42,382 bases of DNA, taken from positions 1 through 42,382 of the forward strand of contig JACOSX010000158.1 in NCBI GenBank assembly GCA_016178625.1, in the 5' to 3' direction. The translations under genes and the position numbers were made by a program. The notes beneath the pieces were generated by a model. It searched no databases, was not told the origin of the DNA, and worked only from the letters and a program-made list of their open reading frames with translations. The DNA comes from Ignavibacteria bacterium. GTDB lineage: Bacteria > Bacteroidota > Ignavibacteria > UBA10030 > SZUA-254. Shown here in pieces: positions 1 to 4,591 of this stretch. Position 1 is the stretch's first letter; each line of letters opens with the position of its first letter.

Positions 1-353
1 TTATGTCCCTGCCAGCCTCCTCTCTGAATAGAAGACTTGACTTCGATGCCTTTTTCACCTTTCAGAATAAGATTGGAAGAATAGAAGCCCTTAGGTAACA
101 AATCTGGATAGCCACCCACCTTAAGATTCGCAACGAGAGAGTGGGACGCCCTGGCAATATTCTTTACGAGAAATTCGGATAGTATTCCTGAGAGTGAATT
201 TCCAAGCAGCAACTCTTCGAGCGGTCGGAAGCCGCTCGTCGTTAGAAAATTGTTAACGCCATTGAATAGCCGATATGTCTCAGAGACAGCCGTTGTCACC
301 TCGTTGACTTTGACATTGATATACTTTGGATCAAGCTGAGTTGGTCGTTCCAT
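1..353 (-). CDS. PD-(D/E)XK nuclease-like protein, 3' end cut by window
   Basis: An open frame runs on the minus strand from an ATG at 353 to the window edge, about 117 codons with no stop. The N-terminal half looks helical. The visible end holds a PD dipeptide (in GGYPDLLP), 19 residues, then EVK (in GIEVKSS), followed by a Gly/Trp-rich stretch (QRGGWQGH). The PD-X19-E-X-K arrangement is the core signature of the PD-(D/E)XK nuclease fold, which many type II restriction enzymes use, so a restriction-type endonuclease is the best guess. The assignment rests on this motif only. The gene starts about 95 bp after an attC-like palindrome (449-570), and no methyltransferase is visible because the gene leaves the window. 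Confidence 0.6.
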   Translation of the reverse strand, partial: MERPTQLDPKYINVKVNEVTTAVSETYRLFNGVNNFLTTSGFRPLEELLLGNSLSGILSEFLVKNIARASHSLVANLKVGGYPDLLPKGFYSSNLILKGEKGIEVKSSIQRGGWQGH

Positions 354-448
354 ATTGTCCTATGTGTGGTTTGTGATTCTGGTCGCATAGTTCAGACTCC
401 AAGTTACGATTACACCACGTGTGAATCAAATCCGCGTGCCGCCATTTT

Positions 449-570
449 CACATAACGTCTGGCGGCAACACGCAGCGGTTTTTCACACTCGGATAGACTA
501 ATCCTCTGTGTGCAAAACCGCTGAGCTTCATAGTCTTAACCGAGCGCGTCGTGTTGCCGTCTGTTATGCA
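449..570 (-). repeat. attC-like imperfect palindrome (candidate cassette recombination site)
   Basis: A nested inverted repeat of about 120 bp. The outer arms are CATAAC (450-455) and GTTATG. The next arms are CGGCAACACG and CGTGTTGCCG, a perfect 10-bp stem. Inner arms are CAGCGGTTTT (473-482) and AAAACCGCTG (514-523). The spacers between outer and second arms are unequal (six versus three bases), as in the asymmetric stems of integron attC sites. On the minus strand the conserved AAC and GTT triplets sit where the R'' and R' boxes should be, although the 7-mers (GCATAAC, GTTATGT) differ at one position from the RYYYAAC/GTTRRRY consensus. It lies between two minus-strand genes in the expected orientation. 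It could instead be a terminator or REP-like element. Confidence 0.5.
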
Positions 571-583
571 CCGCGCAGCATTA

Positions 584-1282
584 CTACGGGATCGTTTGTA
601 CTACGTTACCATTCGCATCCAGAAAACTAATTCTGGCGTTGCCGAGCGAATCGACCATGAGACGAAGGCGAGGCTTTCCTCGACGATCTGACAAATCAAC
701 CAGCGCCGCCTTGTTCGGGTCACGACCGACAAAAATACGTCGCGCCGCTAACTGGTCCGGTGGAACCTTTGCAAACAGCACACGGCTTAACGAGTCTCTG
801 GCTGGCCCTTCTGCCATCGTGTCCAGAATGCCATATACCGCAAGTGCCTCTGGACCCAGCATATCGGGGCGATCGGCGATTGTCAGTCCATGCCTACGTT
901 TGCCATTCTCCTCATCGTACTGGAGCGCTACGATCTGGTCGTCGTTGTATTGATCCATCGTAAGTGCGGCAGCCGCTGAAACATGTTCACCTTTTTTCTG
1001 TCCAGCGTAGACGAGGCCCCCAGCCTCGGTCCCTTCCTGATTCACAAACAATAGGCCAGCCAACTCGGAGCGCCGAGGGGGAAAGCTGCCTGCCAAGAGA
1101 ACCCGAACCTTCCCATCCTTGTCAACGACATTGATTTTTTCCACTGTGAGCTCTTTGAGTTGCATGCTCTCGCCCGATTGTTTGAATCCTGCGAGCAACA
1201 ACACAGCAATGAGTACAGTCGTTGCTGCGGCGTAATACTTTAAGAATCGAATTTGCCCTTGCATCGTTTGCAGATTATTCAT
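584..1282 (-). CDS. Conserved hypothetical protein with one N-terminal membrane anchor
   Basis: 232 residues. The ATG at 1282 is chosen because GGGGAG lies about seven bases upstream; the open frame extends 34 codons further without a better start. Residues about 13-32 are a hydrophobic helix (signal anchor), followed by a soluble domain that begins KELTVEKINVVDKDGKVRV. Repeated 'VxDxxGKxRxxL' strands recur near the C-terminus (LVDLSDRRGKPRLRLMV and ARISFLDANGN), suggesting a beta-rich repeat fold. I recall similar 'INVV..DG..R' hypotheticals in several phyla, without a known function. The gene lies alone between two attC-like palindromes and would be a typical single-gene cassette of about 0.8 kb. 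Confidence 0.75.
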   Translation of the reverse strand: MNNLQTMQGQIRFLKYYAAATTVLIAVLLLAGFKQSGESMQLKELTVEKINVVDKDGKVRVLLAGSFPPRRSELAGLLFVNQEGTEAGGLVYAGQKKGEHVSAAAALTMDQYNDDQIVALQYDEENGKRRHGLTIADRPDMLGPEALAVYGILDTMAEGPARDSLSRVLFAKVPPDQLAARRIFVGRDPNKAALVDLSDRRGKPRLRLMVDSLGNARISFLDANGNVVQTIP

Positions 1283-1361
1283 TGAACACTCCCCTTGGAA
1301 TAAGTGTGAATTTGGATTTGTTGTATCAAATACCAGCCAGCACGTTGCTTTGCTGCGCGGC

Positions 1362-1402
1362 GCATAACGTTGCGCGGGTTTCACCCTCCCAACGTTATAT
1401 GC
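1362..1402 (-). repeat. Second attC-like palindrome
   Basis: The arms ATAACGTTG (1364-1372) and CAACGTTAT (1390-1398) form a perfect 9-bp stem. After three unpaired bases on each side, GGGT and ACCC pair around a 3-base loop. The outer bases continue as GCATAAC on one side and GTTATATGC on the other. As in the element at 449-570, AAC and GTT triplets mark the ends and it separates two minus-strand genes. The flanking TGCTGCGCGG just outside it is inverted at 571-580, so the gene between the two elements has near-perfect 18-bp inverted ends. At about 41 bp it is short for an attC, and a terminator hairpin is the main alternative. Confidence 0.4.
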
Positions 1403-1414
1403 AGTTGCCCGTTA

Positions 1415-2572
1415 CTAGCGGCTCTCGACCACCGCTGGGAGAATGTACTGCGGGACATAAACTCGCTGTGAGACGAAAAGAGCCGGATCGTTATAATTAC
1501 CACCGTAAAAGGCCAATACTAAGTCGAGTTCTGGAATACCCATCACCATCTGACCGCCATTTCCGCCGGCGAAAAAAGCGCGAACGGTTCGTCCATTATA
1601 AGGATATTCAATCACCCACCAAAGATAACCGTACTTAAGTTTGCGAAGTTCGTATAAAGGCGAAGTGGCACGATGCGACCATTCTGACGTCAAGACTCTG
1701 CGTCCGTTCCAAGTGCCGCCATTGATGTGCAACTGACCGAGTTTCATGAAATCGCGTGGCAGGAATCGTACGCCGCCACCCATATAAACATCGCCCGTCG
1801 GTGTGAGAGGCATGAAGTACCGCTTGATTTGTAGCGGCTCGGCGATAAGGGTCTGCATCAGTTCCAGCAGAGACCGCCCGGAGGTATGTTTGAGAACGCC
1901 GCCTGCCAAATTAGGTTGGACACTGCAATAGACCGCCTTCTCACCCGGCTCGCGGATCATTTTCAATGCCATAGTGTATTTATAATAATCTGGCTCTCCG
2001 CTCTCATCGACCATATAGTCTTCCCTACCTGATGAGTTGGGGTCGCTATCATCACAGTCCAGTCCCGAAGACATGGTCAATAAGTGTTCAAGCGTAAGAG
2101 CTCGTTTGCGTGGCTCCAGATCAGGAGGAAACGTGCCACCATTCATCACCTGATAAACCGGGCTAGAGACTTTGAGTGGCACTCCCGCATTGATTGCTGC
2201 GCCTATCAACGTTGCTGTTAAACTTTTTGCTGCAGAGCGAGTGTCGTGCGGCTTCTCGCGGTTTTCGCCGTGAAAATACTCTTCCAAAACCAGCTTTCCA
2301 TGGCGTGCAATCAACACGCCGTGAATCTCGGGAGTACTTATAGAGTCTATAGGAGTATTGATGATCACCCGAATAAATTTTTCGATGCTATCGCGAGAGA
2401 TTCCCACATCTTCGAGCGAAGAGGTAGACCAGCCATCGTCGAATGCTGGTGGAGGCGCGTAAACATAGGGTACTGAAGGTCGGCCGCGCGGGTAAAAGTC
2501 ACTCACCTCATTAGGCGTCACGCGTCTGAAATCGAAAGTTCCGCCGCGGTTCGGAAAATAGATTGCCATCAT
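1415..2572 (-). CDS. Serine hydrolase (class C beta-lactamase/PBP-like), catalytic domain; probable 3' part of a split gene
   Basis: 385 residues with a penicillin-binding-protein/beta-lactamase fold. S113-A-A-K116 is the SxxK nucleophile motif, and Y215-C-S is in the position of the YxN/YxS motif. The family covers esterases, D-peptidases and class C beta-lactamases; the substrate cannot be told. The protein starts abruptly, with no signal peptide and within a conserved region (AIYFPNRGGTFDFRR). Reading the same frame upstream of the ATG gives EGKYDAERE before MMAIYFPN, which continues the domain. The preceding gene (2592-3194) supplies the signal anchor and N-terminal domain in another frame, so the two were probably one gene. 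The Shine-Dalgarno-like GGGAG is almost adjacent to the ATG, a poor spacing. Confidence 0.75.
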   Translation of the reverse strand: MMAIYFPNRGGTFDFRRVTPNEVSDFYPRGRPSVPYVYAPPPAFDDGWSTSSLEDVGISRDSIEKFIRVIINTPIDSISTPEIHGVLIARHGKLVLEEYFHGENREKPHDTRSAAKSLTATLIGAAINAGVPLKVSSPVYQVMNGGTFPPDLEPRKRALTLEHLLTMSSGLDCDDSDPNSSGREDYMVDESGEPDYYKYTMALKMIREPGEKAVYCSVQPNLAGGVLKHTSGRSLLELMQTLIAEPLQIKRYFMPLTPTGDVYMGGGVRFLPRDFMKLGQLHINGGTWNGRRVLTSEWSHRATSPLYELRKLKYGYLWWVIEYPYNGRTVRAFFAGGNGGQMVMGIPELDLVLAFYGGNYNDPALFVSQRVYVPQYILPAVVESR

Positions 2573-2591
2573 CTCCCGCTCAGCGTCATAC

Positions 2592-3194
2592 TTACCTTCG
2601 GTATTGCCCGAAACCGATGTTGCGTTCAGGGTTTTTCAGAAACGCACCGACTGAACCGTCGTCCCTTGCTCTGACCATCAGATATAATGTGAAAGTGTCA
2701 TCGTACGGTAACACATTTCCCCGCCATACGTCGTTTCCATATTTTGTAAGTACAACCGGGGAAGCATAATTAGTAGGCTGGATCCAGTGTCCGACAATTT
2801 TCGTCCGACGCGCCTCAAACTTTCCTTTGAAAGAATTCTCACTGTCCGGCAACTCGAAAGTAATTGCATCCCCATCCAACTTTGCCTGTACAATCTTCCC
2901 CGCGATCTCAGCCCACCACCCGCTGCTGCTCTCTTTGATGAGCAAAATCCCGCGAATATCTGGACCGAAGCGACGTTTTGCCTCCCACAGCCCGACAAGT
3001 TCGCGCGCTGAGTTTGGCATAAGTGCATCGACACGAAGGGTGGTAAATCTACTCGATGACTCAAAGCGACCATCCTCATTCTGTGCTAATGAATAGACTA
3101 ATGAAGCGATCGCAGCAAACAAAATCCCTAGAAAAAGAAACGTTTTTATTCCTCTGGTGAAAGCAGAAAGCAATAGCGCGTAAGAGAAGTTCAT
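2592..3194 (-). CDS. N-terminal domain of the split serine hydrolase (possible pseudogene part)
   Basis: 200 residues. Residues about 15-37 are hydrophobic (TFLFLGILFAAIASLVY), a signal anchor. The remainder (ELVGLWEAKRRFGPDIRGIL, FKGKFEARRTKIVGHWIQP, VGAFLKNPERNIGF) matches what I recall as the domain preceding the SxxK hydrolase domain in a family of secreted serine hydrolases. The frame ends TAA shortly after NPERNIGF, where relatives as I remember them continue for about 40 residues into the 'YDAER..LAIYFPGRGGTFDFRR' segment found in the next gene. The simplest reading is an internal deletion with frame change. Whether the two polypeptides still work together is unknown. Confidence 0.6.
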   Translation of the reverse strand: MNFSYALLLSAFTRGIKTFLFLGILFAAIASLVYSLAQNEDGRFESSSRFTTLRVDALMPNSARELVGLWEAKRRFGPDIRGILLIKESSSGWWAEIAGKIVQAKLDGDAITFELPDSENSFKGKFEARRTKIVGHWIQPTNYASPVVLTKYGNDVWRGNVLPYDDTFTLYLMVRARDDGSVGAFLKNPERNIGFGQYRR

Positions 3195-3370
3195 GTGAAT
3201 ATCCTCGAAAGATGGCTGTTGAGATTATCTACATTAGACTGACGCGGTGACCAAAATGTTTACATAGGGTCCAAGGTAGATGTCAACGGGGAATTGCATA
3301 TAACTATGTAATAACGAATTTCGTCTTTGCATACCAAATTGAGTGGAGAGACGACCACCATTGTACGCTT

Positions 3371-4591
3371 CTACTTCTCCCCATGTTTCCGCGCTTTATA
3401 TTCCACCTCGGGCTTAATCAACTCTGTGTACGGTCCATCCCAGCTTTTCAAGAAGATCGTTCGGAGGATTCCTGCTATCCTTGAGTTCTTCACAACCAAG
3501 CCAAGGTTGCGAGTATTATAAAAGTAACTCTTCTCCCAATTGCTCGTGCCGAGCCAGCACATTGCGCTATCGATGACAAGGTATTTGCAGTGCTCGACTC
3601 TTGCGAAGGGGATGTAACCACCAGACCATTCTGGTATCTCGCTGAATTTGATTTCGACGTTTGGAATGAGCGCCAGGCTCTTGAGATGTTCGATCGTCGG
3701 ATGTTCCTTCGACCAATCGGAGACGATCATCTTCACGTTTACTCCCCTCACTGCAGCTCGCCGCAGCGCGTTATCAAGCACGCCGTAAAAACTTTTGTCT
3801 CGCCCGACCGGCGAGTATGTAAGAACCTGGCAGAACACATCGCTCTTCGCGCCGTCGATAAGATAGATGATATTCTTCTCATCCCAAAGGACAGTATCGG
3901 GTATCAGTCCCCGCGGGCTACAGGTTGGAGAAAAAATGAGCGTGTCATTGTTCGGTTCGATCACTCGGAACGGTGTGCGATAGCGAATGCTTTCCAATGC
4001 ACTATCGATGAGCTTCGGATCATTCTTCTCGGCAAGCTGCCAATCCAGATCGAAGAGATCCCGGCAGGGAACCGCCGCGTCGGCATTCTTGAAGCGGATG
4101 CCGAGCTCGTGGATATGTTTCAGCGCGCGCCAATCGAAGTTCTGACTCCCGATGAACACCTGCTCTGTATCTACGATGAAGTATTTTGCATGTTGCACGC
4201 CGCCCGCTAACTTCCCGAAGTCGATGACGCGGGTCGAAATATTCTTCTGCTTGCCGAGCAAGTCGATCGTTTCCGGATAGGTCTTGTACATTCGGGCATC
4301 GGTGATAACTCGGACTTTAACTCCGCGCTCAGCCGCTTTCATGATGGCTTTGATGATGTCGTCGAGTGGCTCGCTCGCTTGATTGGAGATGTAGAACTCT
4401 TCTATATCAAGTGTCCTCTTTGCCTCGTTAATCATGTCAAGCCATACGTCATGCGTGTTACGAATATCCGGATTGTCCAGCGTCGTTTCTATGGGGATAC
4501 TCTCAACGATTTCGAAATCAGGATATCCAGCGATTTGACCAAAGGATAAGCTTGTACTTGCGCAGAAGAGGATAAATAAAAGTTTTTTCAT
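3371..4591 (-). CDS. Secreted phospholipase D family protein, PLD3/PLD4-like
   Basis: 406 residues with an N-terminal signal peptide (MKKLLFILFCASTSLSFG). Two HxKx4D motifs give the two halves of one PLD active site: H134-A-K136...D141 and H334-C-K336...D341, each followed by a GSxN/GTSN turn (IGSQNFDWRAL and LGTSNWEKSYF). The IFLKSWDGPYTE segment after the second motif closely resembles the 'IFLRDWDSPY' segment I recall in animal PLD3/PLD4, and 'NFDWRALKHIHELGI' resembles their first motif. PLD3/PLD4 are known as 5' exonucleases of single-stranded nucleic acid. A phosphodiesterase acting outside the cytoplasm on nucleic acid or lipid is inferred; the substrate is not decidable here. It is transcribed in the same direction as the neighbouring propeller lipoprotein, 40 bp apart. 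Confidence 0.85.
   Translation of the reverse strand: MKKLLFILFCASTSLSFGQIAGYPDFEIVESIPIETTLDNPDIRNTHDVWLDMINEAKRTLDIEEFYISNQASEPLDDIIKAIMKAAERGVKVRVITDARMYKTYPETIDLLGKQKNISTRVIDFGKLAGGVQHAKYFIVDTEQVFIGSQNFDWRALKHIHELGIRFKNADAAVPCRDLFDLDWQLAEKNDPKLIDSALESIRYRTPFRVIEPNNDTLIFSPTCSPRGLIPDTVLWDEKNIIYLIDGAKSDVFCQVLTYSPVGRDKSFYGVLDNALRRAAVRGVNVKMIVSDWSKEHPTIEHLKSLALIPNVEIKFSEIPEWSGGYIPFARVEHCKYLVIDSAMCWLGTSNWEKSYFYNTRNLGLVVKNSRIAGILRTIFLKSWDGPYTELIKPEVEYKARKHGEK

Follow-up and report, generated by a model that had tools for sequence, protein, structure and literature searches.

Integron-like gene cassettes behind a host gene in an Ignavibacteria genome, and a patchless tyrosine recombinase associated with such arrays in related genomes

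The window analyzed here is a stretch of 42,382 nucleotides, positions 1 to 42,382 of contig C140 in an Ignavibacteria genome of 3.36 Mb that is distributed over 177 contigs. One end of the window holds a row of single genes in the same direction, separated by palindromes and adjoined by a chromosomal PLD gene. Listed toward the contig start, the features are as follows:

3371-4591, minus strand: chromosomal PLD gene, adjoining the array head
3305-3333, minus strand: attI-like half-site at the array head, TATGCAAAGACGAAATTCGTTATTACATA followed by GTTA (right-half match; single occurrence of the regular expression in the window)
1394-3304, minus strand: cassette B, private inverted ends 3304-3285 and 1413-1394 (16/18 complementary)
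1415-3194, minus strand: cassette B gene, beta-lactamase-family serine hydrolase (PF00144; from ORFs and Pfam)
1364-1398, minus strand: short separator of cassettes B and A, TAAC-GTTGGGAGGGTGAAACCCGCGCAAC-GTTA (fold z-score and recurring core)
563-1368, minus strand: cassette A, private inverted ends 1368-1351 and 580-563 (17/18 complementary)
584-1282, minus strand: cassette A gene, hypothetical protein of 232 amino acids (ORF; no Pfam family)
453-566, minus strand: recombination-site-like element between cassettes A and C (covariance-model match and covariation)
1-457, minus strand: start of cassette C (GTTATGTGAAAATGG...), with an ORF running from 353 to 1 and cut by the contig start (from sequence)

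The array would thus begin with the attI-like half-site, followed by cassette B, the short site, cassette A, the full site and cassette C. The cassette B gene is covered by two minus-strand ORFs (3194-2592 and 2572-1415) that, on our reading of the sequence, probably represent a single gene with a frameshift at 2572-2640, near an A-run, due to either pseudogenization or an assembly error.

The ends of each complete unit are complementary to one another: GTTATGCGCCGCGCAGCA (1368) and GTTATGCACCGCGCAGCA (563) match at 17 of 18 positions in unit A, and GTTATATGCAATTCCCCG (3304) and GTTATATGCAGTTGCCCG (1394) at 16 of 18 in unit B. The near-perfect inverted ends that the preliminary description had noticed around the middle gene are therefore real, as is the third boundary it had suspected near 3300. 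Its proposal of cassette boundaries around single co-directional genes is supported. When all GTT[AG]..[TC]AAC ends located 250-3500 bp apart were compared for 18-nt complementarity, only units A and B reached at least 15/18 in the 42-kb window; shuffled windows yielded 0.6 rows (0.3 distinct pairs) at this level and none at 16 or more. Unit B, unlike unit A, contains an A/G (A.C) mismatch at position 11.

The same organization is apparent in relatives. The 80 units delimited by consecutive sites have a median length of 801 bp; 72 of them carry their longest ORF on the strand of the site and 4 on the opposite one. Private ends with at least 14/21 matches were found in 67 % of 78 units, compared to 0.5 % when the ends were swapped between units. 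Across the 52 best units, each of positions 1-10 and 12-16 is matched 45-52 times, whereas position 11 has an A in the start but a G in the complemented end (an A.C mismatch) in 47. A typical cassette possesses private inverted ends of 17 bp with this mismatch. The sampled cargo includes a methyltransferase, a C-5 cytosine methylase, a DUF4268 protein and a weak match to NERD. A homolog of gene A with 38 % identity is also located in a cassette in G008, a relative assembled into 10 contigs, whose array, with nine listed sites, is made up of minus-strand units that have ends and separators of the window kind. Another homolog, in G006, is not visibly contained in a cassette, and a scan of named genomes with protein A produced no matches. 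Some units are very short or lack an ORF (approximately 110-250 bp between sites; L095 9630-10147, L100 197-849 and L103 3041-3486).

The palindromes between the genes are present where the preliminary description had placed them (449-570 and 1362-1402), and the strand folds better than shuffled sequences in both regions (z -4.7/-6.5 for 445-575; z -3.5/-2.4 for 1355-1408). Covariance model R3, whose training set comprised 8 sites from a different genus and excluded the window, has a single match in the window, 443-576 on the minus strand (65.2 bits, E 9.8e-16). Alignment of this left site with eight G008 sites delineates a common architecture, namely an R box (TAAC/GTTA), spacers of 2 and 5 nt, an L helix of 11 bp and an inner hairpin. 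The L helix varies in sequence from site to site, yet 98 % of its positions are paired (83 % for the R helix), and the alignment contains 58 double changes compared to 18.7+-3.3 in shuffles. As in attC sites, R and L boxes pair and enclose a variable stem; in this class of sites, however, the L helix is unbulged, without an extrahelical L-box base. The separator of cassettes B and A is much shorter than the left site, with a mini-hairpin of 25 nt (1369-1393) between the R boxes, and on this separator the covariance model yielded 13 bits and no match beyond the R boxes. The hairpin core GAGGGTGAAACCCGCG recurs in the same genome on contigs C12, C14 and C129 (none for the reversed control pattern), and the copies on C12 and C129 lie at cassette ends that were found independently. 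Across the Ignavibacteria-type order, model R1 detected 390 sites, which are distributed over 52 of the 98 genomes and include 9 in the genome studied here (10 at E<=1); sites of this class span 97-240 bp and share one orientation along each array.

Classical integrons also occur in the order: IntI scores above the cut-off in 22 of the 98 genomes, one of them in the same family. In the attC sites of these IntI arrays, one base of the L box (GGCGCTCAAGCTG/CAGCTTAGCGCC) is bulged, and the commonest form of their attI is CTAATCATAG followed by TTA. A classical attC model trained on the IntI arrays of the order finds more than 20 sites in IntI loci and none at E<=1 among the window sites, its only hit in other arrays being a weak cross-match in L095 (24.8 bits); conversely, R1 detects at E<=1 none of the classical attC sites used for that model. 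The earlier suspicion of a divergent attC-like class is supported. The first cassettes of IntI arrays show extended inverted ends as well (14-17/18), and extended private ends are thus common to both systems. In one locus with a genuine IntI (L041, G038:C52, 9890-11399), a classical attC follows directly downstream in the same direction, the usual layout being divergent.

The preliminary description had suggested that, if its cassette reading holds, a chromosomal integron lies next to the window. The patch is the defining feature of integron integrases (PMC2426708, PMC9668308); according to PMC8138268, this insertion is essential even though its conservation within the integron-like subgroup is incomplete. 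The genome studied here contains no IntI above the TIGR02249 cut-off. The best match to this model is a tyrosine recombinase encoded at the terminus of contig C64, a type that scores 234 bits against a cut-off of 265. The catalytic set RKHRH..Y is complete in the alignment of C64-type proteins (R140, K165, H232, R235, H258 and Y267 are invariant), and approximately 45 residues between YNLGTS and GWLFPG, which correspond to the IntI patch (I2 helix), are missing. The identification of the C64 protein as an IntI was rejected on this ground. The C64-type recombinase passes the cut-off of the XerA-like family NF040815 (222.3 and 230 vs 220), which is named "site-specific tyrosine recombinase/integron integrase", and such genes may therefore be annotated ambiguously. 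In a quick tree, which was built without XerA and thus leaves the rooting open, IntI forms one clade and the Ignavibacteria-type proteins nearly one group (with the long-branch exception of L159), both apart from the XerC/XerD-like proteins of the genome itself.

The notion that the C64 protein is merely an IS-associated integrase was dropped after this recombinase was found at array heads. Among 20 array regions that were fetched by their sites alone, regardless of recombinase, 6 encode a close homolog, always at the head and co-directional with the array. Conversely, 13 of the 14 recombinase loci with at least 650 bp of downstream sequence contain sites downstream (the exception is L151), and 8 further loci break within approximately 305 bp of the gene, as C64 does. 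At the level of genomes, at least 3 sites are present in 25 of the 31 genomes that encode the recombinase and in 10 of the 67 that do not (98 genomes; OR 24, p 4e-10; p 6e-6 when stratified by family), the latter ten lacking the recombinase at E<=1e-60. In contrast, the number of sites is not associated with IntI across the 98 genomes (p 0.23). The lack of an IntI above the cut-off in this genome and the link of the site class to the patchless recombinase speak against a classical chromosomal integron. A scan of named genomes detected the recombinase in MAGs assigned to Ignavibacteria, Ignavibacteriales, Chlorobi and Bacteroidota.

In most of the recombinase loci, the first cassette starts 35-76 bp past the recombinase stop codon, at a palindrome of the type AATAACAACGACATATGTCGTTGTTACAnATA followed by GTTA (exceptions are L150, L156 and L165 in distance, and L150, L157 and L162 in sequence). 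The right half of this platform recurs in the window as CGTTATTACATA followed by GTTA, and the right half CGTNNTTACA-N-GTTA is common to the window and to the post-recombinase site of most related arrays. The window sequence, GACGAAATTCGTTATTACATA joined to GTTATATGC, sits exactly where unit B starts, and this is the only window occurrence of CGTnnTTACA-N(1-5)-GTTR; the resemblance of the window to the attI-like platform consists of one half-site. No recombinase adjoins this array; the half-site lies next to the chromosomal PLD gene, which occupies the position of the recombinase. The PLD gene is present in 13 of 15 genomes of the family and the DNA downstream of it differs in all 7 relatives inspected, which indicates that the array is an insertion behind a host gene. 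In the relative G010, a second copy of the last 28 PLD codons is located approximately 530 bp downstream of the gene (G010:C39:5647-5730).

Outside the order, 17 loci, mostly from Patescibacteria, encode patchless recombinases with 37-42 % identity, and all 33 R1 matches in these loci are on the strand opposite the recombinase gene. Arrays of attC-like sites that diverge from a patchless recombinase are seen in L219, L223, L215, L178, L188 and other Patescibacteria loci. The sites in the 17 loci covary strongly (177 vs 54 double changes, a figure inflated by the fitting of the alignment to the structure), and none of 7 such genomes encodes an IntI above the cut-off. Related patchless recombinases are also encoded in L182 (Altiarchaeales), L170 (Pseudobacteroides cellulosolvens) and L209 (Nanoarchaeota); the fetched flanks of these three loci contain no R1 sites, and the loci may harbor cassettes with a different class of site.

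Taken together, these observations make it likely that positions 1-3333 represent the head of an integron-like array of a kind that is moved by the patchless recombinase in relatives and that, in this genome, was founded in trans or orphaned. Recombination of the cassettes is inferred. The patchless recombinase would cleave a single strand of the folded site, at G^TT, cassettes would be excised as circles in which the start and the end of the same unit pair over approximately 17 bp, and the circles would be inserted at the attI-like site. The window array may have been founded in trans or may have outlived its recombinase, given that the PLD gene holds the recombinase position and that the sole recombinase of this type in the genome lies at the broken end of C64.

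The cassettes share several features with IntI/attC integrons and with CALIN as defined in IntegronFinder (PMC9024848), including cassettes that each hold one gene and all point the same way, folded sites that comprise R and L helices with an asymmetric spacer, an insertion platform at the head, and a tyrosine recombinase of the same superfamily branch. Unlike in IntI integrons, the recombinase lacks the IntI patch and, in Ignavibacteria-type genomes, is co-directional with the array; the L helix has no extrahelical base, the cassette ends carry the A.C mismatch at position 11, and the attI-like palindrome does not resemble the IntI attI of the order. An unlikely alternative is that the window contains a classical CALIN whose divergent attC sites are moved in trans by an ordinary IntI, the patchless recombinase being a neighbor with another role. 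The attC-like R box, spacer and L helix, the occurrence of IntI in the order and even in the same family, the extended ends of the first cassettes in IntI arrays and the weak L095 cross-match would all fit such a CALIN. However, the number of sites tracks the patchless recombinase and not IntI, the classical model misses the window sites and R1 the attC sites beside IntI, and the genome itself encodes no IntI above the cut-off.

The remaining explanations seem much less plausible. There is only a slim chance that the array consists of Xer/dif-type modules, comparable to plasmid pdif, on which host Xer recombinases act at inverted 28-bp sites: the recombinase does pass the XerA-like NF040815, but the sites are 97-240 bp long with covarying L and inner helices and a single orientation along the array, and the recombinase at array heads is a dedicated one, distinct from the XerC/XerD-like proteins of the genome. 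We consider it just as improbable that the units are mobilized by an HUH-type transposase or another hairpin-recognizing element, with the recombinase as a passenger. Single-strand transposition would likewise be compatible with hairpin ends and private inverted ends, but the position and direction of the recombinase, the conserved attI-like site at array heads and the common GTT..AAC boundaries, which are of the tyrosine-recombinase cassette type, argue otherwise. Least credible of all is that unrelated genes are separated here by ordinary terminators of transcription or by REP-like palindromes, the former already named in the preliminary description as the refuting option. Palindromes between same-direction genes would be expected of these too, but the complementarity joins unit ends 800-1900 bp apart and includes a fixed mismatch, the structure comprises several covarying helices, and a recombinase is linked to the sites; we rejected this explanation on the private ends, which all but disappear upon swapping.

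Returning to the integron-like array, the closest described proteins appear to be the simple tyrosine recombinases of the XerA-like, "Cand" and patch-variable "integron-like" subgroups, which, in passages of PMC8138268, likewise consist of a core-binding and a catalytic domain only. The "Cand" subgroup in those passages includes members from candidate phyla, as is the case here, and the C64 protein passes NF040815; the authors call this subgroup Xer-related, and the same passages describe no cassette arrays for it. The integration of CTX-phi by XerCD (PMC4792948) is similar in that the substrate of the patchless recombinase is a folded single strand without extrahelical bases; unlike here, it joins a phage site and a host recombinase, with no cassette array. 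The open-access literature (subscription papers and preprints lie outside this scope) yielded no account of patchless cassette arrays or of integrons in Patescibacteria. Because the arrays of relatives follow a recombinase without the supposedly essential domain, they look like a widespread and apparently undescribed relative of integrons. Much more tentatively, the Ignavibacteria-type and Patescibacteria arrays might constitute a second, widespread and IntI-independent capture system, with a patchless sister of IntI and hairpins unbulged in the L box, that preserves the ancestral stage of IntI integrons.

Escudero et al. (2016; PMC4792948) posed a chicken-and-egg question, namely how the I2 domain could have been selected ahead of attC sites, or attC sites ahead of the domain. 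A natural system in which attC-like cassettes have unbulged L boxes and the recombinase no I2 domain would open this question to laboratory tests. In that case, moreover, attC-like site clusters that lack IntI, notably those of candidate phyla and archaea, may be substrates of another recombinase rather than dead remnants.
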